Of a stretch of 32,554 bases of DNA, positions 1,318-14,097 are shown one piece after another. The notes beneath the pieces are model-generated. The model saw nothing but the letters and a program-made list of their open reading frames with translations, searched no databases and was not told where the DNA came from. The stretch comes from an uncultured Peptococcaceae bacterium. Lineage in GTDB: Bacteria > Bacillota > Desulfotomaculia > Desulfotomaculales > Desulfallaceae. Every line of letters begins with the position of its first letter. Positions within the stretch are counted from its first letter, which is position 1. The stretch spans positions 1 through 32,554 of the forward strand of contig CAJYBN010000003.1 in the NCBI GenBank assembly GCA_913064925.1, written 5' to 3'. Made by a program: the position numbers and the translations under genes.

Positions 1318-2238
1318 ATGATCCAAATGATTGAAGAGGCAGTTATGCACCTTCTTCGTAACAACTCGGACCTGCATGAGCCTTACACAATGCTGAGAAC
1401 TTATGTCGAACGCGATATGGATACGTTACCTGAGAAGTTTTGGGAAAATCTTAAGGCGCTAAAAGCTGCGGCTGTTAGTGAAAAAAACCAGACTTTTGCC
1501 AAAACCATTTGGTGCTTGGAGACGGCTGGCAAAGTGCAGGATTATTTCATCACAGCGTTCACTCTATGCCGTCAAGATAATTTCTACGGAGGTTGGTGTT
1601 ATTTTGAGCGGTGTGAGATTCAATTAGCATCACTTGACCGACATTTTCGAGAAGAGGACAGCGAATTTGGACTCAATTTCATCCGAGAGCATTACCCACG
1701 ATTCCAATTTCTGTTCCCTTACCGGTTGTTTATTAGTCCGGGTTTTATAGTGAAAGAGGCCCGTTGTTCGATTTGTGATGAAGTCATCAAGCTCCGTGGC
1801 GGATGTGGTCATATCAAGGGGGAAATTTACGACGGAGAGTTATGTGTATGGAAGATTACGGGGGCCGATTTCTTAGAGGTTTCATTAGTAGAAAACCCGG
1901 TCCAGAAGTATTCTGTGGTTTTTCCTCAGGACGGCTCATACAACTACGCTCTAATAAAATATGTAGTTGATGGGCTGCGTTCCCCGTGGCATGCATGGGA
2001 CTATGATAGGATCATGATTGAAACGGATGAGCCGCTGTACCCTGGTGTGGGTCAGAATGAACAATGTCCCTGCGGATCCGGCAACGAGTTTAGGCTATGC
2101 TGTATTAACAAAAGAAAATTTCGTGAGCACTACCAGGTGTTTTTCTCGGTTCCGCCGCCCAAAGAACTACCAAACTACGTTCCCACCGCAGATTATCGTA
2201 TACCAAATAAAAGGTATCTCCCTAATCGAAATAAATAG
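1318..2238 (+). CDS. SEC-C motif protein with an additional CxxC/CxH metal-binding-like cluster
   Basis: 306 aa; C-terminal NEQCPCGSGNEFRLCC (SEC-C signature) plus internal CSICDEVIKLRGGCGHIKGEIYDGELC. Confidence 0.75.
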   Translation: MIQMIEEAVMHLLRNNSDLHEPYTMLRTYVERDMDTLPEKFWENLKALKAAAVSEKNQTFAKTIWCLETAGKVQDYFITAFTLCRQDNFYGGWCYFERCEIQLASLDRHFREEDSEFGLNFIREHYPRFQFLFPYRLFISPGFIVKEARCSICDEVIKLRGGCGHIKGEIYDGELCVWKITGADFLEVSLVENPVQKYSVVFPQDGSYNYALIKYVVDGLRSPWHAWDYDRIMIETDEPLYPGVGQNEQCPCGSGNEFRLCCINKRKFREHYQVFFSVPPPKELPNYVPTADYRIPNKRYLPNRNK

Positions 2239-2912
2239 GTAATAATGTTATCAAGTGAAACATCGTCGGTATAATCTATATCGGCCCGGACCCGGTATTT
2301 TTCTATTTTGCCGATATCGTGCAGTAAGGCCCCCGTGACCAGCAGGTCCCGGTCAACCCGGGGATAAGCCGCCGCCACCCCTTCGGCGGCCTTGACCATA
2401 CCCATGCTGTGCTGCCACAGCCCGCCCAGCAGGGCGTGGTGATTGTGCTTGGCGGCCGGGCTCCCGGCCATAGCTTCCATCAGGTTGTGGTCATTGGCCA
2501 TCAGCAAAAGCAGCTGCTTTAAATGCGTTGTTTTGATGGTGGCCGCGATGTTGAGCCAGGTTTCCCGTACTTCTTCCCTGGTGACGCCGGTTGAAGGAAT
2601 AAACCTTTCCGGCACCACCTGGTCATCCGGGCACTTTTCCACGGACGCCAGGTTCAGCTGGATGGCCCCGTTGTATTCGGTGACGCGGCCGGTTACTTTG
2701 ACTACATCGCCGGCCCGGCAGCAGTTGTTGACTTCTTCCGCCTGTTCCCATACCAGGCCTTCCACCCGGCCCGTTTTGTCTGCCAGGGTAAGCCTGAGGA
2801 AAAACCCTGTTCCATCCCGGTAAGGCAGTAATTTCTTGCCGCGCAGTGCATAAGCGCCGTTTACCTCGTCCCCGAGCTGCAGGTTGTTAATACTTGTGCC
2901 GTCCACTGTCAT
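2193..2912 (-). pseudogene. YhaM-like OB-fold/HD-domain 3'-5' exoribonuclease, C-terminally truncated
   Basis: Start Met at 2912 with AGGGAGG; OB-fold region (GRVEGLVWE...VVKVTGRVTEYNGAIQLNL) then HHALLGGLWQHS and TGALLHDIGKIEKY (HD). Family similarity is lost after ...RADIDYTDD and the ORF ends about 20 codons later. Confidence 0.7.
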
Positions 2913-2988
2913 TCCCTCCCTTTGGAGTTTGCCCTTTGTAATTACATGGCCCTGGCGTAGGCTCCCATCTCCCAAATCTCAAATCAAA

Positions 2989-3720
2989 TCATCTTAATTC
3001 CACCACATCTACATCTAAACCCTGCCGGTTAACTTCAAATCTATCTGACGTTAGTAACTCCCCCAACTTTACATTTATATCAAAAGGAAACAAAGCCGGA
3101 GCGCTAATTAAGCTTTGATAGGTTATCGTTCTTTGGTCAATACAACGCAAATAGCATTCCAAAAGCCATAGTTTAAGTTCTTCATTTTCAATCACTATTT
3201 TATTAGCAGCAACATATTCACCTTTTACGTCAGTATCCTTAAGGGCCCCCCAAAGAGATAACGAACGGAGCAGTCGCTGCACTGCCCAATTTAATGAACT
3301 CCTGTCTCCCCAGCTTTCAATAATCCGTTTGTGCACCTGGGCCAGGGTTATTTCATCTTGCAGGGATAATAGCCGTCCGATTACAGTGGTAACATCCCTG
3401 AATAAGGGGTAAGCCAGTAAACACAAGCCCCAGTGCAACGCTAGCCGTTCTTCTGTTTTTACTTTGCGTAAAAACTGCAGAGCCTGATCCCGCAAGGAAA
3501 CATCTTCCTCAGGCACCGAAACCCATATTCTCATTAAAACATTGATATGTTTACGCCTCGATTCACCACCTTTTATTATGTCTGATAAATAACCATCCAT
3601 TTGTTCTTTTATACGTTTAGCATCTCTTTCATCGTTATATAAAAAAGCCAGTTTATCCAACCAATCCAGCTGGATTTTCTTTTCCATGCCTATTCGCTTC
3701 AATGCTGCTCTTCCTTCCAC
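2989..3720 (-). CDS. brxA: BrxA-like protein (BREX type 3, distal gene)
   Basis: 243 aa, last gene of the block, overlaps the pglZ stop by 22 bp; helical protein in the position expected for BrxA. Called mainly from position. Confidence 0.6.
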   Translation of the reverse strand: MEGRAALKRIGMEKKIQLDWLDKLAFLYNDERDAKRIKEQMDGYLSDIIKGGESRRKHINVLMRIWVSVPEEDVSLRDQALQFLRKVKTEERLALHWGLCLLAYPLFRDVTTVIGRLLSLQDEITLAQVHKRIIESWGDRSSLNWAVQRLLRSLSLWGALKDTDVKGEYVAANKIVIENEELKLWLLECYLRCIDQRTITYQSLISAPALFPFDINVKLGELLTSDRFEVNRQGLDVDVVELR

Positions 3721-5636
3721 AGTCTAATAAATGGCACAATAATTTCTTCAATACTTATACCACCGTGGCTTACAACACTCTTGCCCTTGGTAATATATGC
3801 AGTTTCATCTTCCGCCAGCAATATGTGAATATCTTCCGGTAAACCGTATTTATTTGGCCAGGCAATGGACTTTGTTTCTTCCATCGCTTCTCGCAAAAAC
3901 TCCTGGTTTTGATAAATTCTAAATCTTTCACCCTTACTATCTACCAATACCCCCTGGTTAAGCTTACCCTGGCCAACTGCCGCCACGTTTCCGTGATCCG
4001 AGGCTATATATACTTTAAAGTTATTTGCCAGTAATTTATCTAATAAACTTTGCAAGTACCCCCCCTGCATCCAAAGCTCTATATCTTGGTACATTCCTTT
4101 GGTACCCAGTTGCTGGCCGTGTACCATTTTGTCTACTTTATCAATAACCAGTCCCAGAATCTGTGTTTTAGGATCTGATAACAGTGAATCCAATTCTGAA
4201 CCGTCACCATCGCCCAATTCCTTAACCAGTTTTATATTAAAGGCTTTAAAACCTTCATTTTCCCAAAAACGCTTCCATAATTGATCCTCTTTATTAGTGG
4301 TAAATAAAGAGTCTTTAAAATATCTCGGCGGTTCCCCGGCGAAAATCGCCTGGCGGGATACCGAAGTCATGGTGGGCACCCAGGCAAAAGACGAGCCTTC
4401 TTCAAACCTAACCCCGGAAGCCTTCAACAAGTGCTTTTTAACCAGTAGCCACTGGTCCCAGGCCATACCGTCAAGAACCACTAAAGCCAACCTTTGCCAG
4501 CCATTTTTTCTCCCCTGATAACCAAGGAATTTCGGTATATGATGCACCATTACAGGATTTTTGATATAAGGTAAATTGCTTAGAGTACCATACTTAACCA
4601 GCAACCATTCTTTAAACAGCTTGCCAAGCTCACGATAAACCCCGTTAAATCTATCTTTAATCGCCCGGGGCAAATTTTCGACTTCATGCACTATTACCTT
4701 GGCCTCCGCCAAAACGGGAGCAACATTCAACCAGTGCTGGTAGGAAAGGTTTTCCTGGTGTAGTAATTTCTCCAACTTTTCAATGAGCAGTGTTAACCTT
4801 TGTTCCCCGTGGGTATCCTGATACCCGGCAATTCCCACTTTAGCCCAGCCGGGCAGATTGTCTGCTCCCTCAGTAACATCAACGGGCGTTAAAATACCTT
4901 CCAAGAAAAGGTTATCGATATATACCCGGATATCATTATGTTCAAAGGGTACCAGCGTTTGACCGCCGCCTTTAATTTTATTGTAGATAAAAAGTCTCCA
5001 CTGTTCTTGTAAAAAGCCCCAGAATTCCTCCCGGCCGGCTAATAATTTTGCTCCGTTTATACCTGTAAAAAATTCTTTGCCTTGCAGTTTTTCATTGATA
5101 AATTCAATTAAATCCTCTGATAATTGAACCTTACGATAATGTAAGGAAATTAATATCCTGATAAACTGTTCAATGTTTTTGATTAAACCGGGAACCAATT
5201 CGTAGACATGCTGTAACACAAACTCCCTGGTACCCTGATCCCCCAGCTTTCCTCCATCATATTCGGAATAAGCTTGGTATAAAGCACCTATTACATCCAT
5301 ATCCAATTGTTTCAGCACCGGGTAACTGAACCTGGGGAAAAACTCAGCCAAACTCAAGCTAACAGGTACCCCAACCTGCAGCACATCATAGGGCAAGACA
5401 TTTAAATTATGATCCCGCACTTGCACAATTAATTTGCGATCGGTTTGGTCTCGAAACTCAGCTTCATAAACATACCGGAAAGCAACCGGGTCGTTATATT
5501 CTACAACTTCAAAGCCCTGTCCGGTCAAATTACCCAGAATACTTTCCTCCTGAAGAATTCCATCAGGGTCCGCTACCAGAATAATTCTGTGCATTTCTAA
5601 ATTGAACTTTTCCAATACCCTTTGATACCAAAGCAT
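3699..5636 (-). CDS. pglZ: PglZ-domain protein (alkaline phosphatase superfamily), BREX type 3
   Basis: 645 aa; LVVLDGMAWDQW, WVPTMTSVSRQAIFAGEPP, VIDKVDKMVHG, VYIASDHGNVAAVG: metal-binding motifs typical of PglZ. Confidence 0.88.
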   Translation of the reverse strand: MLWYQRVLEKFNLEMHRIILVADPDGILQEESILGNLTGQGFEVVEYNDPVAFRYVYEAEFRDQTDRKLIVQVRDHNLNVLPYDVLQVGVPVSLSLAEFFPRFSYPVLKQLDMDVIGALYQAYSEYDGGKLGDQGTREFVLQHVYELVPGLIKNIEQFIRILISLHYRKVQLSEDLIEFINEKLQGKEFFTGINGAKLLAGREEFWGFLQEQWRLFIYNKIKGGGQTLVPFEHNDIRVYIDNLFLEGILTPVDVTEGADNLPGWAKVGIAGYQDTHGEQRLTLLIEKLEKLLHQENLSYQHWLNVAPVLAEAKVIVHEVENLPRAIKDRFNGVYRELGKLFKEWLLVKYGTLSNLPYIKNPVMVHHIPKFLGYQGRKNGWQRLALVVLDGMAWDQWLLVKKHLLKASGVRFEEGSSFAWVPTMTSVSRQAIFAGEPPRYFKDSLFTTNKEDQLWKRFWENEGFKAFNIKLVKELGDGDGSELDSLLSDPKTQILGLVIDKVDKMVHGQQLGTKGMYQDIELWMQGGYLQSLLDKLLANNFKVYIASDHGNVAAVGQGKLNQGVLVDSKGERFRIYQNQEFLREAMEETKSIAWPNKYGLPEDIHILLAEDETAYITKGKSVVSHGGISIEEIIVPFIRLWKEEQH

Positions 5637-7293
5637 TTAATAGCCCTCCACATAAACCAGGCATACCGGAGTTAATTCCGGAATAAAATTCTCCTTTTGA
5701 GCCATGCGCCCCCTCCAGAGATGTTCCTCCCGGTCCAGCTGTTTAAGCCGGTGCTCCCTTACCCCTTTAAGCCCCAAACGGGAAATTGCCTCCCGGCGCA
5801 AACGAAAAGCCAATTCACCTTTTTCTCTTTCCCGATTGAGCCTTTGCCGGTATAACTGCTCTATTTCTTTAAAAAGGCTATAGCCATGTTGTTTTATTTT
5901 TTCTTCCAAGGTTTCTAAAACATCGTCGCCCTTTTTAAAACCTATAAAATGTATCTCTTGTCCCTTATCCATAAACCTGTCCCAAATGTACTTGGCAGTT
6001 GGTAAATAAGACTTACCCTCTTCGGACAGAAAAACAGGAAACACCCTATCCATTCTCTGGTCCGTGCCATTAAGGCCAATTCCCCAAAGGGACCAGTACC
6101 CTTTAATGCCTTCCGGCAAATCTTTAAGCTGCAGAACTGGTACCGGCTCGCCCGGTACAAAAATATGCCGGGCCATTAATATTTTCAGTATTTTTTCTTC
6201 CTGGAGCGTCAATTTTTTACCAATACCCCAACCAGGCTCTTGCCCCCCGAAGGTTACATCTTCAACAACGATTCCATAGCATTTCCTGGCTGTCCAGTTC
6301 CCAAAAATCTATATCCGGGTCAACATCAATATCCGGTATTTGTTTTAAAACCTCCAAGCGTTTCTCCAGCGCTTCCCGTATAGCCCTGGTGCTGCTGGTC
6401 ACCATCCGCTGCATAAGCACCATTAAAAAGCCAATATAATTTTTCTTTTCCAGCAAAGCTTGATTGTAACCCTGCCTGACATACTCGGTAACCGCATGGT
6501 AAAGTTTTTGCTGTTCGGCATGGCGGGCTTCCCAGCTAACCGGCACCAGTTTGGTAATGCGGGGTTGGAAAAGTTTACGCCCATGTGCATCTATGGCTTC
6601 CCTTTTCTCTGTGCGAATAACATAAAGCGCTACCTGTTCTTTAACAATGGCACTGGCATTGGGAAAAGCATCTCTATCAATTAACGTCATCAGCCTGTAA
6701 AAGCCGTCTGTTTTACCCTGGTGTGGAGTGGCGGTAAGAAGCAATAAATATGGAGTTGCTTCTGATAACGCTTTGCCCAACTTATACCGGGCCACCACCT
6801 CGGTACTGCCGCCCATTCTGTGCGCCTCATCCACAACCACTAAATCCCAGCCGGCATTTATTACACTATAAAACCGCTCCTGGTTGTAACGGGCCAGTTG
6901 TTCTTTGCTCCAGCCCTTGCGCGACTCAACGGGCTTGATAGCGTCCATCGGGCACACTACCTGGTTGTACTGTTGCCAGGGGTTCGCTTGACCGGGTATA
7001 ATGCTCAAGGCACTTAATTCCCCGGGGATAAGCAAATGAAAATCTTCGTTAAAATGATTTTTCATTTCCTGCACCCACTGGGCTACCAAGCCTTTGGGGG
7101 CCACGATTAAAATTCTCTTTACCAGGCCACGCAGTTTTAGCTCCCGGATAATCAACCCCGCTTCAATGGTTTTACCTAAACCCACTTCATCAGCCAGTAA
7201 ATAACGCACCTGGTTCCCTGAAATAGCTCTGTTCAAAGCATATAACTGGTGAGGCAGGGGACCAAAAACCCAGTATCCATGCGGATTATTAAT
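5637..7293 (-). pseudogene. brxHII: BrxHII-like SNF2/DEAD-like helicase, disrupted (N-terminal truncation and internal deletion with frameshift)
   Basis: Fragment 1 (6262..7293): INNPHGYWVFGPLPHQLYALNRAISGNQVRYLLADEVGLGKTIEAG...VVVDEAHRMGG...LLLTATPHQGKTDG, ending ...DIDFWELDSQEMLWNRC*. Fragment 2 (5637..~6255, shifted frame): VVEDVTFGGQEPGWGIGKKLTLQEEKILK...GYWSLWGIGL...REREKGELAFRLRREAISRLGLKGVREHRLKQLDREEHLWRGRM...PELTPVCLVYVEGY, the C-terminal end typical of this helicase family. RecA2 motifs (IV-VI) are absent. Confidence 0.82.
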
Positions 7294-7384
7294 TTAGCGG
7301 TTTCCAAGGGTGCGAAAATTAAGTTTAAATTAAAACCCACGCAATATTTGCCGTGCTTTCCATTACTTATGACAAAAAAGATAA

Positions 7385-9937
7385 TTAAACTTCTGTTCTG
7401 GTAAGGGCGTTGTTATAGTACATTAACAGGGATGCGTCATCCTGGATAACAGATTCAGGGATACGCTGCGCCACTTTTACAATTGTATGGTAGTCTTTAT
7501 TTTTCCAGCAAGCTTTAAAGCCGGCCCGCACAGCCTCCGACCGGAACACCTTGAGCTTACCTTTACCTTCTTTGTACTGTTCAAATTCCCTCAGCAGAGC
7601 CTTTTCGCGCAGTTTTTCCAGGTCGGCCTGTTTGTTGGGGTCAGGCACATACCAGCGGCCTTCCTCGTCCTGCAAGAAATTTTGGTCCAGTATTTCTGAT
7701 AGCTCCAACTGTTTTTCCCACCGCACGTACTTGGCTTCCTTTAAAAATTGCGGGGTTAGTTCCTGTATAGTTTGTGGTTTATCCTCTAGTTTAGACCGCA
7801 CCCACTGAATGGCCGACCTTTCATCATGGATAAACAAGGACAGTTGGCCGATACCCTGGGCCAGCGCCCGCTTTCGCTCATACTCCGGTACCTGGTGGGG
7901 CAGGAAATACATACCGTCCCGTTCGGGGAACCTTTGGTGCAGTCCCTGGTAGAACTCTGCAGCACCCATTGGAATGGTGTAGCCGTTTTGAAGGTGGAAG
8001 GCCACCATTCGGTCGTAAAGCATGTAGTTTTGTCGTTCCGCGAGTACCTCTATTAAGTTATCCCTAGTTACCACTACCGGTAATTGCTCAAGATGCTGTT
8101 TGACAAATTCCCATACTCCTTCATCTGAACCTGCTTTGGTAACGAAATTATTTAAAAATGATGTGTTCGGTTTATATGCAGAAACTATTAAATCTTCCTT
8201 CATAGCCGAAGTAGTGGTAACCTGTTTAAAACTGCCTATCTTTTTGTTTAAAACTCTTACATCAGCTACCACAAAACCTGCTTTAAGTAATGCTTCCTGT
8301 ATAGCATTCCAAACGGCATTTTTGGAATTGTGAAATACCATTGTAAGCCATCGACCAGGTTTTAAAATGCGATACAATTCTTGGAAACAACGTTCCATAA
8401 TTATTTGATATTCATAGAGCCCTTTTCTTTGTGCTTTGTTAACAATAGCCTCTTGTTCGTTATTAGTAAAAACCCTTAACCAACCTTCCCATAAAAAATT
8501 TAACTCAGAATACATAATATTTCCACCAAAAGGTGGATCAGTAAAGATGTAGTCAATAGAATTATTTATAATTGACATTGTTGTTGACGATTGACAAGTT
8601 ACTATATTTTCGCGGGCATTTGTTGAAGAAAGAACTTTAATCTGCTTCTTATATTTTGTATCATAAAAATATAATGGATTATTTTCCCTACTTAAAGCAG
8701 GTATATACAACGTCCCAGTAAGGACGCTCATAGGGAATGACCAATTACCATGTTTTACCCTTTTACTTACTCCGTGATCAATAGAGTTGAGCCAATACTG
8801 TAATGATTTATTTTTTGATTGTTTTACACGGTTCCTTAATGCTCCTAATATCCATAAATTCCGTTTAGTATAAAAATGATGCACATGAGTTAATCCATGA
8901 GAATGTTTGGGTTGTTCGGTATTGTAACCGTCCGGCATCTTATCCGTCGGATACCAATAAGGAACATCCATGCTTTCGATCTTATTAATATTCTCATAGT
9001 CAAACCCATCTGGCTCTTTTTCATACCTCTCTCTTCCTACCGAATAATTAATCAGCACAGGTACTTGCTTGGCCTGGCGGATGGTTTCATTAATATCCTT
9101 ATCAAACTTGGTTACCCATGCCCGCTCCATATTGCGTTTGTTTAGTAAAGCGCTGCAGTGGGGGCACGGGAACTCTTTATTTACTTTGCCTGCTTTTTTA
9201 TCCACTGCCGCGTGCCAGAATACCACTTCTCCACTACACTGGGGACATACAAACACGTCGGACCAAACAGTATAGTTTATCCTCCCCATCACAGGATTAC
9301 CGTCCGCATCCTTTATTACTTTACCGTTTACGGTATGCTGGGTCTGGTACATCCACCCGCATTCTTTTTCCACTTCCGCCAGGATGCGTTTTGCTTCCCG
9401 CTCGAATTCCTCCACGTCCACCGGGTTGTTGTAGTTATAGGCAATGAAGGTGGCCGCCGGGGATAAATCGCACAAAATGGCTTTTCTGGCCCCCCATTTA
9501 ACCGGGCCCATTTCCTTTTCAATTTGCATCTTAAATTCAGGGTCGGGGTTGCCGCACATTTGAGCCGCCACCCCGGTCATACCCGTACCGCAAAAGCCGT
9601 CAAAGACAATATCTCCCGGCTCGGTATAGTGTAAAATGTAGCGCATAATTGCCTTGTGGGGCACTTTGGTATGGTAGGAGTGGGCGTTATAAATGGGGTC
9701 GTTTTTGCCCTCCGTCACGTCAGCCGCAAAAGGTTCCCGGTGATAATCATCAGTAGCCTCGTCATAAGGCTTGCCGTGTTCCTTGATGAAATCCTCGATA
9801 AACGGGTTGGGGCAGGCGGTATAATAGGGCGGGTCGGACAAGGCAATAATATCTTCGTCCCGCCCGATGGGAAAACCTTCTATATGCCTTACTTTGTCCA
9901 GTAATTCTTTGGTCAGCTTTTTCTTTTCCACGTCCAT
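7385..9937 (-). CDS. pglXI: Adenine-specific DNA methyltransferase with Zn-ribbon (COG1743-like; PglXI of BREX type 3)
   Basis: 850 aa; SAM-binding motif DIVFDGFCGTGMTGVAA, catalytic YIFTDPPFGGNIMYSELNFLWEGWL, and CPQC...CPHC zinc ribbon. Confidence 0.85.
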   Translation of the reverse strand: MDVEKKKLTKELLDKVRHIEGFPIGRDEDIIALSDPPYYTACPNPFIEDFIKEHGKPYDEATDDYHREPFAADVTEGKNDPIYNAHSYHTKVPHKAIMRYILHYTEPGDIVFDGFCGTGMTGVAAQMCGNPDPEFKMQIEKEMGPVKWGARKAILCDLSPAATFIAYNYNNPVDVEEFEREAKRILAEVEKECGWMYQTQHTVNGKVIKDADGNPVMGRINYTVWSDVFVCPQCSGEVVFWHAAVDKKAGKVNKEFPCPHCSALLNKRNMERAWVTKFDKDINETIRQAKQVPVLINYSVGRERYEKEPDGFDYENINKIESMDVPYWYPTDKMPDGYNTEQPKHSHGLTHVHHFYTKRNLWILGALRNRVKQSKNKSLQYWLNSIDHGVSKRVKHGNWSFPMSVLTGTLYIPALSRENNPLYFYDTKYKKQIKVLSSTNARENIVTCQSSTTMSIINNSIDYIFTDPPFGGNIMYSELNFLWEGWLRVFTNNEQEAIVNKAQRKGLYEYQIIMERCFQELYRILKPGRWLTMVFHNSKNAVWNAIQEALLKAGFVVADVRVLNKKIGSFKQVTTTSAMKEDLIVSAYKPNTSFLNNFVTKAGSDEGVWEFVKQHLEQLPVVVTRDNLIEVLAERQNYMLYDRMVAFHLQNGYTIPMGAAEFYQGLHQRFPERDGMYFLPHQVPEYERKRALAQGIGQLSLFIHDERSAIQWVRSKLEDKPQTIQELTPQFLKEAKYVRWEKQLELSEILDQNFLQDEEGRWYVPDPNKQADLEKLREKALLREFEQYKEGKGKLKVFRSEAVRAGFKACWKNKDYHTIVKVAQRIPESVIQDDASLLMYYNNALTRTEV

Positions 9938-9947
9938 CGCACCCCGT

Positions 9948-12900
9948 TTATTCTAATATTATTCTTACTTTAGCAGCGTCTTTGCCTGTTATGCTGCTAT
10001 CCAGGTATTTAATAAACCGGCTTTTTAATTCATCAATGGTACAGGGGCTGCCGCCGGCCAAAAGGGCTGATTTTATCTCATCCAGGGTCAGAGTTACCTT
10101 AATCAGGCCCCGCAGTACCTCCTGTACCGCTTTAATGAATTCGCTGTCCAAGTCATTCGGCAAAACCTTGGTGTTTAAAAATTCCTCCACCCTGGCTCGG
10201 GCGCTTTCTTTGGTTATCAGCGGTATATTATTCCGTACAACGGGATCCTCCAGGTTTTCCAGCAGCGTATTGGTCCATTCTGCTACCATTGTATCCAGGG
10301 CTTCTTCCAGCTGTTCCACCCGCCCGTGTACCGGCCTGTCGCCCGCTTCCCGGGCGGGATTAAAGGAACAGTGCGGGCATACCGGGGTATTTTGAAGATC
10401 TTCTTTGACCAGGCTGTAACATGGCTTCAACCTACCCAGCTCATCGGTCCATGCTTGTAACTGCCCCTTGGGCATCAACTCAATTTCCTTTAATTTGTTT
10501 AATTTCTTTAAGTCATCGTGCTGCAATAATTTTTTCTTTTTAGTATCATCATGGACATCCAGCCGAAACTTTTTGTGCAGGCCCAAGTATTCATTGATAT
10601 AGTTTTCTTTTATACTCTTTAAACGGGTGAGAATTTCCTTTTTGACGGTATTGTCTACTTCCCTGCCAACGACCAAACCGGCCAGTTCCCGGCGCTGGTC
10701 TTGCAGCTCCTGCACCCACGGGTGGTCGCCGGGCAGGGCCATTTCCGCCTGGGATATATAAGCGGCCAGGCTGTCGGTTTCCCTTTTCAAAGCCAGCAGT
10801 TCAGAAAGCCGGGCCATAATTTGCCTGGCGGTTTCTTGTTCCTTGATCTCCTTTATCGAATAGCGGAAATTTTTTAGCTTGGCAGGCGTTTTATAAACCT
10901 GCAGAGATTCAAGGAAGTTTTTAAGACTATCCAGTTTTTTCCTGGCTTTTTCCTTTTCCGATTCCGTTAAAAAGTTAATGCCGAAACTTTGGATACCGTT
11001 GGTTATTTGGGGCTGCAGGGTGGCCACAGTTTGTACTAAATTGGTTACTTCCTTTTGCATATTTTGCACAGCCTCATCCCTGGTAGCCGGGTTGACAATT
11101 TGCCCCGGAGGCAGCCCCAGAAATTCAAAGAGTTCCTTTAACTCAGGGAGCGGCAAATCTTTGGGCGGCTCGATATGTTTAAAATCAATAATATCTTTTA
11201 ATGGTTTTTTGGCCAATTCCTCAAGGTTGGAAGCGTCATACTTGCCGCCATGCAAAGCCAAGGTTACGGCTCCGTCATAAACCAGGGCCACCAGTAATAC
11301 CGCCACCCATTCGGGTTCCAGCCGGTAAGCCACGGCATAATCTATGGTATAAATGGGCTGGATTAACTCGTTCCGGTTAACCACCTGACCGGCGCCTTTT
11401 TTCTTTAACCGGTCTAAAATGAACTTGGTATAACGGGAATTTAGCGGCTTTAAGTTGTTTCCTTCCAAAAGCTCCAGGGAATCCAACATTTTGGCCCCGA
11501 TGTCGGTTTTAATATTGGTGGCAATCCAGCGAATAGCGTCCTGGGCATACTGGTCCCGGTTTTTTGAAGTAACTTGAACCGCAAAAATAGGGTAATCCGG
11601 CGCTTGCTCATGGAAATATGTGGACAGCAGGTTTGATGCGGCAGTGTTAATCAATTCCCTGGTATCTTTACCCGAACCGGCGCCTTTAAGCCAGTTGACA
11701 AACTTGTGTGTGACACCTTTATAAGTAATTTCAAAGGCCGAGGTTAAATTATTCTTAATCCAATTAGCTACATCCTTGCGGTGTTTGGCTGCTTTTTCGT
11801 TGTAGCTTCGCTTGCTTTCACCCTGGGATATGGTAGCCATTTCCACCGCACCGGCATATAGTTTTAAAGCAGTAACAAATTTTTCATCAAGCCGGGTTAA
11901 TTTGAAAAACACTTCATCTTGTTTTTTCTCATCTTCAAAACCGTTCTCGCCAAAGGGTTTTAAGAAATAGATATAAAAATCCCTGGGGGGCTGGGCAGTG
12001 GACCGTTCATTGGGTGCGCCAAAAAACAGCCAGCCGATGCGGGAAGTTTTCTTTTCTTTCCATTCCAGTTCATATTCCCAAACCCTGTGACCGGTAACCA
12101 TTGATTCGCCCAAATCCAGAATCTGGGTCAGGACACTAAAGTAATATCTATTTAAGGTGTCTTCGGAGAGATGTTCTGCTTTCTTTTCAATCTCGGAATC
12201 ATAATCTATATCCTTGTTTATATCAAGATAATACTGCTCATTTTCACTGTTTTGGGAAATAAACTGACCGCTAACGGTTCTGCGAATCTCCCTTAAAACG
12301 GTTACCAGAGTGGTGAGTAAAAAGTCCGCGTCCTTCTCGGGCATGGGCAAGTGGAGGCAAAGACCGTCCCTTAAATTAGCAGCAGTAAGCCCGACAGGTA
12401 AATTAATATCGCCGGTGGTCAAACGGTGCACGCTCAGAGCATGGATTATGCGTAAAGCGACGGGTTTATACAATGGCTGGGTAAAGGAAGTATTGATAAT
12501 ACTCTCCAGCCGCTGGCTTTTATCCACAACTGTCCGCACATCCGGTATGCTTCTAAGGGATGGGTTATCCAGAATAAATTCCCAGTATGAATCATAGGAA
12601 AAAATCCCGGGCTCATCTTCCGGCACCGGTTGATCAAGAAGCTTACTAATGGTTTGGCTTAATGTTTTTAACACTTCTCTTTTTTCAGCTACGTAAATGC
12701 TTTCGAATATTTTCAGGTATTCGGGATGCACCGGAAACAAGGCAACAAATTCTTCGGCCCGTTCGGCCATATTTTTATATAGCGGGTAAAATTTTTCCAG
12801 GTGGGAGCGAATTAAAGCCTTTTGCCGGTCATCCTTTTTTAATAGCCTGTTGGCAACCACAAAAGCCACGTCTTCCCGGGCAATGCGCAGCTGTTCAAAA

Positions 12901-13640
12901 CGGGCCTTAACCCGGTTTAGAGTTGCCGCAACAAATTGAAAGCTGCTGTTATCAAAAAGGGATTCCTGGACCCCGGCAATGAATCTAAACCTGGTGGATT
13001 TACATACTTCGCCTATTTCACGCAAAAAGTTCAGGTCTAAAATGACTTCCTGTTCTTTTCTGGTACGCAGGTAGTCCAGTAGCTCATCCACCACCACCAG
13101 GAACCCCTTGTCAGGGTACAGTTCTTCAAACCGGGCCATCATTTCCATTAGATAGTCTTTGGTATTAGATACCTGGTCCATCGGCGGAAAAACATATTCG
13201 ACATCGATGCTCTCCAGGTAGTTGGTCATGCCCTGGCAGATAATTTCCCGCAGCGGCATGGTGGAAGCGCCTATTTCGGTACGGAATACTTTAAACTTAC
13301 CAGCAATCCGGGCAGCGTATTCTTTTACTTTATCATGTTGAATTAAGTCCAGTGTATCGCCGTGCTCGCAAATGGCGGATACGACCGACATCAAGTGCGA
13401 TTTACCAGTACCGTAGTTACCTACAACCAAAATGGCTTTGTTGTCGCCGGGTTCGTCAAATTGCAAGTGAGGTAGAACAATATCCTGCAATTTTTCGGCC
13501 ATACGGTCGGAAATAACAAAGGTTTTAACCAGCCTTTGGGCCTCGGTATAATCATTTGCTTCTATTACCTGTACCACTGTTTCTATAGGGTCAAATTGCA
13601 CTAAATCACCGTACTTCAATTCCTTTTCCCCCTCAAACAT
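9948..13640 (-). CDS. brxC: BrxC/PglY-like large P-loop ATPase (DUF6079-like)
   Basis: 1230 aa; Walker A ILVVGNYGTGKSHLMSVV, Walker B-like GFLVVVDELLDYL; C-terminal CPHC; N-terminal LVQFDPIETVVQVIEAND. Confidence 0.87.
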   Translation of the reverse strand: MFEGEKELKYGDLVQFDPIETVVQVIEANDYTEAQRLVKTFVISDRMAEKLQDIVLPHLQFDEPGDNKAILVVGNYGTGKSHLMSVVSAICEHGDTLDLIQHDKVKEYAARIAGKFKVFRTEIGASTMPLREIICQGMTNYLESIDVEYVFPPMDQVSNTKDYLMEMMARFEELYPDKGFLVVVDELLDYLRTRKEQEVILDLNFLREIGEVCKSTRFRFIAGVQESLFDNSSFQFVAATLNRVKARFEQLRIAREDVAFVVANRLLKKDDRQKALIRSHLEKFYPLYKNMAERAEEFVALFPVHPEYLKIFESIYVAEKREVLKTLSQTISKLLDQPVPEDEPGIFSYDSYWEFILDNPSLRSIPDVRTVVDKSQRLESIINTSFTQPLYKPVALRIIHALSVHRLTTGDINLPVGLTAANLRDGLCLHLPMPEKDADFLLTTLVTVLREIRRTVSGQFISQNSENEQYYLDINKDIDYDSEIEKKAEHLSEDTLNRYYFSVLTQILDLGESMVTGHRVWEYELEWKEKKTSRIGWLFFGAPNERSTAQPPRDFYIYFLKPFGENGFEDEKKQDEVFFKLTRLDEKFVTALKLYAGAVEMATISQGESKRSYNEKAAKHRKDVANWIKNNLTSAFEITYKGVTHKFVNWLKGAGSGKDTRELINTAASNLLSTYFHEQAPDYPIFAVQVTSKNRDQYAQDAIRWIATNIKTDIGAKMLDSLELLEGNNLKPLNSRYTKFILDRLKKKGAGQVVNRNELIQPIYTIDYAVAYRLEPEWVAVLLVALVYDGAVTLALHGGKYDASNLEELAKKPLKDIIDFKHIEPPKDLPLPELKELFEFLGLPPGQIVNPATRDEAVQNMQKEVTNLVQTVATLQPQITNGIQSFGINFLTESEKEKARKKLDSLKNFLESLQVYKTPAKLKNFRYSIKEIKEQETARQIMARLSELLALKRETDSLAAYISQAEMALPGDHPWVQELQDQRRELAGLVVGREVDNTVKKEILTRLKSIKENYINEYLGLHKKFRLDVHDDTKKKKLLQHDDLKKLNKLKEIELMPKGQLQAWTDELGRLKPCYSLVKEDLQNTPVCPHCSFNPAREAGDRPVHGRVEQLEEALDTMVAEWTNTLLENLEDPVVRNNIPLITKESARARVEEFLNTKVLPNDLDSEFIKAVQEVLRGLIKVTLTLDEIKSALLAGGSPCTIDELKSRFIKYLDSSITGKDAAKVRIILE

Positions 13641-14097
13641 GCAAAATTGTGCAATCTTGTTCGGTTAAACCCTGGTAGCGCCTGAACTCCGGGTGTCCCT
13701 GGTTGGCATAGGTGAGCCTGCCGCCATCAAACTCTCCGGTCCAACCCACTACTACGGTTTTGTTGCGGCTAAGTAATTGTAACGCCTTTAGCGGATCTAC
13801 TTGCAGCTCGGGTAAAAATAAAATCTCAATATTATCAAGGAAAACTACGTCCTCATTGTAAGCTCTAATAATACCGTTCAATAAAGTCAAAACCTGGGAG
13901 GCCCTCTTGCGGGCGGGAATATCCACCAGTTTACCGGCTAAAGCCAGGCTGAGATTTATGTATGGGTAACCAAGAGACTCACTGGCCCGTTTTAAAAAAG
14001 TTGTTTTCGTTTCGGCAAAGAGGCTTAAAACCAGAACCAGCCTGAAATATTTACCCTTTGCTTCTTTAATTTTTTGGTTATATGCTTTTAGATTCAT
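13633..14097 (-). CDS. brxF: BrxF-like small P-loop protein (BREX type 3)
   Basis: 154 aa, first gene of the block, 8-bp overlap with brxC; Walker B-like DVVFLDNIEILF; degenerate Walker A region LSLFAETKTTFLKRA. Confidence 0.72.
   Translation of the reverse strand: MNLKAYNQKIKEAKGKYFRLVLVLSLFAETKTTFLKRASESLGYPYINLSLALAGKLVDIPARKRASQVLTLLNGIIRAYNEDVVFLDNIEILFLPELQVDPLKALQLLSRNKTVVVGWTGEFDGGRLTYANQGHPEFRRYQGLTEQDCTILHV

Follow-up and report, generated by a model that had tools for sequence, protein, structure and literature searches.

A type-3 BREX operon with a probably recently destroyed BrxHII helicase gene, and the recurrent absence of this helicase among related loci

The DNA analysed here, called the window throughout, is a stretch of 32,554 nucleotides from an uncultured Peptococcaceae bacterium (GenBank assembly GCA_913064925.1, contig CAJYBN010000003.1). 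Its source is a single assembly of 305 contigs (G000), the sole genome of its genus in our comparison. Positions 2989–14097 of the minus strand are occupied by a type-3 BREX operon, in which the genes are ordered brxF, brxC, pglXI, a broken brxHII, pglZ and brxA, each matching its own PADLOC model (Table 1). A functional BREX system methylates adenines of the host DNA at a non-palindromic 6-bp site and restricts phages. The six genes and their order are those of type-3 BREX; the nearest intact operon that we found is that of Desulfotomaculum MAG BL5_bin.2 (L033), where the helicase is a single 925-aa ORF, whereas the window has its BrxHII in two non-functional pieces.

Table 1. Features of the type-3 BREX operon in the window, and related loci in which no helicase lies between pglX and pglZ
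Feature	Position or loci	Strand	Remarks
brxF	13633..14097	-	154 aa, intact; PADLOC BrxF E 8e-46; 6/6 near-invariant columns
brxC (DUF6079 AAA+ ATPase)	9948..13640	-	1230 aa, intact; Pfam DUF6079 and PADLOC BrxC full length
pglXI (adenine methyltransferase)	7385..9937	-	850 aa, intact; PADLOC PglXI E 0
128-bp stretch, no relative found	7257..7384	-	corresponds in position to the start codon and first ~94 codons of L033 brxHII (TUDOR region)
brxHII fragment 1, RecA1 half (DEVGLGKT, DEAH)	6262..7293	-	343 codons; homologous part ~6278-7257
Deletion junction	6277..6278	-	L033 8960-9834 (~875 bp) gone; blastn and alignment
brxHII fragment 2, C-terminal domain, other frame	5637..6277	-	ORF 5637-6212, open back to 6308
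pglZ	3699..5636	-	645 aa, intact; PADLOC PglZ E 4e-215; 19/19 near-invariant columns
brxA	2989..3720	-	243 aa, intact; PADLOC BrxA E 4e-83; 6/6 near-invariant columns
No helicase between pglX and pglZ	L092, L094, L095, L096, L111, L119, L120, L121, L122, L123, L135		
Divergent loci without a helicase between pglX and pglZ	L103, L104, L145		

All five non-helicase genes are present, in order and, judged by their PADLOC models, full length; together they keep 441 of 443 near-invariant residues, the columns being defined among helicase-bearing operons. BrxC retains 196 of its 198 such columns, with the Walker A motif GNYGTGKS at residue 74, and PglXI retains all 214, with its DPPF motif. What the type-3 set lacks here is an intact BrxHII helicase. 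A preliminary description of this DNA had noted that the frames neighbouring the helicase stay open over long lengths, which is confirmed, and had proposed that decay is limited to the helicase, which the five full-length genes support. Within pglXI, window positions 8565–8937 show no DNA-level alignment to L033, and both flanks align. This segment may be a target-recognition insert, in which case the window and L033 systems may methylate different sites. Adjoining brxA (window 2193–2975, minus strand) is a gene for a YhaM-like protein with an OB fold and an HD domain; the gene looks truncated at its 3′ end, since the HD domain stops after about 40 of 116 positions.

Both helicase fragments match a single BrxHII model, PADLOC PDLC02500 (933 positions). 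Fragment 1 corresponds to model positions 91–425 (E 8e-180) and fragment 2 to positions 740–929 (E 5e-51), and model positions 1–90 and 426–739 have no counterpart in the window. Present are RecA1 with its Walker A and B motifs (DEVGLGKT and DEAH) and the C-terminal alpha+beta domain, though in a different frame; missing are RecA2 with motifs IV–VI and the N-terminal TUDOR domain with the start codon. These results agree with the preliminary description, which had recognized an SNF2 N-terminal half and a C-terminal tail in another frame, and had proposed the loss of the RecA2 half. The domain map given in the text of a 2026 survey (PMC12839542) places TUDOR at residues 1–75 and Swi2/Snf2 at 75–670, followed by an inactive REase and the C-terminal alpha+beta domain; by this map, the window retains RecA1 together with the greater part of the C-terminal portion. 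The survey also describes a domain order of BrxHII that parallels that of the RapA-like Swi2/Snf2 helicases. RapA, however, is a partner of RNA polymerase with two TUDOR domains, whereas the window BrxHII is without TUDOR and RecA2.

In blastn comparisons with L033, to whose helicase fragment 1 is 89% identical in amino acid sequence, the window aligned on both sides of two breaks. At one of these, window position 6277 aligns to both L033 8960 and L033 9835, which sizes the deletion at ~875 bp; as this is not a multiple of three, the frame changes. Lost with it are RecA2 (motifs IV–VI) and the start of the following domain, and the L033 counterpart of the lost part carries motif V (STEAGGEGLNLQF) and motif VI (RIGRVDRIGQ). 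The alignment with L033 revealed no long repeat at the deletion ends, and the missing RecA2 half is absent from all other contigs of G000. The junction is tight, with the homology of fragment 2 starting ~2 nt from the end of that of fragment 1. The tail had earlier been placed ~50 nt away in another frame; the change of frame stands, but the 50 nt are the out-of-frame tail of fragment 1. The 3′ end of fragment 2 carries the ribosome-binding site of pglZ (GGAGG; pglZ start context TGGAGGGCTATTAAATG), which may explain why this end of brxHII has survived. A scan for promoters and terminators near the lesions found no excess of note.

The other break lies at the 5′ end of the gene, where the 128-bp stretch replaces the L033 segment from 7698 to ~7979. 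Helicase homology starts at PLPHQ (window ~7257), the in-frame stop at 7294–7296 is real and, as had been proposed, the true N-terminus is missing. The segment INNPHGYWVFG, previously read as helicase sequence, belongs to the foreign stretch. Over a short length, its GYWVFG resembles GQWVWS of the helicase N-terminus, but homology would require an additional internal deletion and is unsupported. No second copy of the 128-bp stretch was found in G000 or in the 113 genomes of the order, which gave only two chance-like matches of 22–24 bp; these sit among housekeeping genes, not transposons. Neither direct nor inverted repeats surround the stretch, and it does not resemble the ~1.6-kb insert that separates pglX from brxHII in L034.

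In a rate test with the Pelotomaculum operon (L034/L091) as the outgroup, the fragments showed 24 amino acid and 44 synonymous changes on the window branch, compared with 30 and 49, respectively, on the L033 branch. Their dN/dS values against L033 were 0.06 and 0.15, and those of the intact genes were 0.08–0.15. A simple bound, which assumes ~3.4 nonsynonymous changes per synonymous change if unconstrained, puts the neutral share of the window branch at no more than ~6%. These values suggest that the lesions are recent or that the fragments are still under selection, as an equally low rate of amino acid change would be expected of pieces still selected as proteins. A start-codon scan found no ATG, GTG or TTG with a ribosome-binding site near the beginning of fragment 1; since this fragment has no credible start codon, the sequence data favour recent lesions over selection on the fragments.

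We consider it likely that the window carries an ordinary type-3 BREX system in which brxHII was destroyed recently by two lesions, the operon now being in effect a five-gene set. An out-of-frame deletion of ~875 bp would have removed RecA2, the 5′ end of the gene, start codon included, would have been replaced, and the operon would have been left as BrxF-BrxC-PglXI-PglZ-BrxA. An SF2 helicase motor requires both RecA halves, so that no helicase activity would be expected to remain. A draft genome of many contigs and 128 bp without a match might instead suggest that variants of different strains were misjoined in this contig and that the true gene is whole. Such a misjoin, however, would need two separate lesions in one gene, the assembler would have had no long repeat to collapse, the missing half has not been left on another contig, and one and the same relative is the best match for the genes on either side of the lesions; an assembly error is therefore unlikely. 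The preliminary description had also raised the possibility that the two pieces are made as separate proteins; the RecA1 piece might, for example, bind DNA as a decoy, or the C-terminal one might act in regulation. Consistent with this idea, neither fragment shows an excess of amino acid changes, and the BrxHII of a Rokubacteria MAG (L037, 7665–9245) has lost ~400 codons (RecA2 and the following domains) by an independent in-frame deletion, while RecA1 is kept and the rest of the operon is open. We nevertheless judge it highly improbable: fragment 1 has neither a start codon nor a ribosome site, neither piece alone is an SF2 helicase, and the lesions are too young for the rate test to separate selection from youth. 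The L037 deletion is also young, since L037 is nearly identical to L050, which retains RecA2 and is intact where read. Nor was the same split found under selection in the intact relatives, in all of which the helicase is one ORF of ~890–1030 codons; L037, the one similar case, has a single, internally deleted ORF in frame, not a split gene.

To place the broken brxHII among related operons, we searched with a type-3 BrxC model in 113 genomes from the order and 399 from the phylum, and the regions were retrieved and compared with models built here. The BrxC tree carried 49 labelled loci, namely the window plus 48 surveyed or reference loci, which include a single plasmid not belonging to the phylum. 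BrxHII was present in 32 and absent from 14; two further loci have, in its stead, a DrmD-like SNF2 gene on the downstream side of brxA, and in the window the gene is broken; between pglX and pglZ, the helicase is thus absent from 16 of the 49 loci. Its absence requires no fewer than 7 changes on starred branches of the BrxC tree, 6 on those of the PglZ tree and 7 on those of the PglX tree; all three are quick trees, and some of their branches are long. Two clades, L092/L094/L095/L096 and L119/L120/L122/L123, are wholly helicase-free, and the pglX-pglZ gaps of L096, L111, L119 and L120 measure 3–18 bp. No BrxHII-like gene was detected genome-wide at E 1e-30 in G056, G210 and G402, each a single contig, or in G376; G309 and G222 have a helicase-free locus plus a second, helicase-bearing system. 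Helicase-free operons keep 92–100% of the near-invariant BrxC columns, and likewise those of PglX except for the split PglX of L122; the pglX of L104 is degenerate. In helicase-free pairs, the dN/dS values of the remaining genes were 0.05–0.30. These results, with repeated absence and purifying selection on what remains, support at the level of the type-3 family the earlier suggestion that the system tolerates loss of its helicase. The many repeats of its loss, and the persistence of a helicase-free five-gene form in some lineages, make BrxHII look like a part that can be separated from the others; at least two lineages appear to have long kept this form with the other genes under selection. 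The choice between decay and a helicase-less BREX, as first posed for this locus, would then be partly a false one.

Neither type-3 BREX nor its occurrence without BrxHII is new: the survey mentioned above reports the helicase in only 77% of type-3 systems (702 taxa, 77%), from which it follows that 23% are without it (PMC12839542). The window is a decayed member of this known type. The helicase-free loci of the survey have the same five genes in the same order as the window; in those the gene is wholly gone, whereas the window keeps about half of it, as at an early stage. In the text of the survey we found no treatment of the helicase-free operons collectively, of how many times the loss occurred independently or of recent deletion cases. 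A recent case among our loci is L111 (G210), sister to the helicase-bearing L112, L113 and L087, with a BrxC 94% identical to that of L112. Its pglX-pglZ junction keeps the sequence that follows pglX, plus the last helicase codons with the pglZ ribosome site (TACGTAGAAGGTGTAG), which marks this as a recent clean deletion. The event in the window would be one more case of recurrent BrxHII loss from type-3 operons whose other genes are kept under selection.

No conserved substitute gene was found beside L092, L095, L096, L111 and L119–L123. Downstream genes include a LevR-like regulator in L119 and L120, a subtilase in L096, an OLD-like nuclease with a HEPN-like gene in L111 and, in L094, a TOTE-type primase-helicase. 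A DrmD-like SNF2 gene lies directly downstream of brxA only in L129 (10496–12865) and L134 (10556–13774), the sister group of one helicase-free clade, where it possibly replaced BrxHII. With these neighbours, and the DrmD-like gene in these two loci alone, no general substitute helicase emerges. At the place of brxHII in the pglX-pglZ gap, L094 (10204–10569) and L095 (9749–10467) have a nucleotidyltransferase-like ORF, and L095 a HEPN-like ORF too; by eye, these ORFs resemble an MNT/HEPN toxin-antitoxin pair.

Among the papers searched, none was an experimental study of BrxHII. In type-1 BREX, BrxL, which is proposed to take the part of the helicase in that type, is dispensable for methylation and needed for restriction (PMC9122589). 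The survey regards DNA unwinding as the common role of BrxL and BrxHII, and proposes PglZ as the principal BREX nuclease effector (PMC12839542). As in the type-1 brxL deletions, one non-methylation component with a proposed helicase role has been lost from the window and the rest is intact. Unlike the Swi2/Snf2 helicase BrxHII, which was lost naturally, BrxL is an AAA+ protein (MCM/Lon-like) and its loss was engineered; carrying the BrxL phenotype over to BrxHII is an analogy between different proteins. By this analogy, PglXI with BrxC, BrxF, PglZ and BrxA would still methylate the host DNA, and helicase-dependent restriction would be lost or weakened while PglZ, the proposed effector, is still made. 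Methylation retained with restriction weakened or lost is thus the most likely state of the window system, unless PglZ alone suffices for restriction, as the repeated, selected five-gene operons leave possible.

That a helicase encoded elsewhere in the genome acts in trans is very unlikely. G000 does encode two large SNF2-type helicases, C185 (1251 aa) and C74 (1276 aa), but these match generic motifs only and are other kinds of protein, and the four helicase-free genomes searched have no BrxHII-like gene. It is possible, though somewhat doubtful, that the operon in the window works as a BREX without the helicase, PglZ restricting phages together with BrxC and BrxF. The frequency of helicase-free operons, their conserved BrxC and PglX under purifying selection, the lack of a shared substitute and the proposed effector role of PglZ all speak for it, and the long-lived lineages may work in this way. 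Methylation alone, however, could account for selection on the five genes, and the window lineage has been helicase-free too briefly for selection in that state to show. We hold a little less tentatively the broader view that BrxHII is a detachable module, that five-gene operons working with a PglZ effector arose repeatedly, and that the window is seen soon after such a transition. The reading that we prefer for the window itself remains the recent destruction of brxHII by two lesions in an ordinary type-3 system.

Type 3 is the least explored major BREX type. The repeated natural losses of BrxHII offer ready comparisons that bear on how BREX stops phages and on which components serve methylation and which serve restriction, including whether either activity, or both, depends on the helicase; the best such comparison is that of L111, with its clean deletion, and the near-identical, intact L112. 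A five-gene operon would be labelled incomplete by annotation tools for which BrxHII is obligatory. Disruption is not special to the helicase, since several type-3 loci have other genes split by stops or frameshifts, namely brxC in L100, L110, L125, L144 and L049, and pglX in L100, L110, L122 and L124. In L087, L088, L089/L105, L113, L114, L118 and L034, large gene modules interrupt the operon, either in the brxC-pglX or in the pglX-brxHII interval, and partial copies of the pglX 3′ end occur near such insertion spots in L088, L089 and L095.
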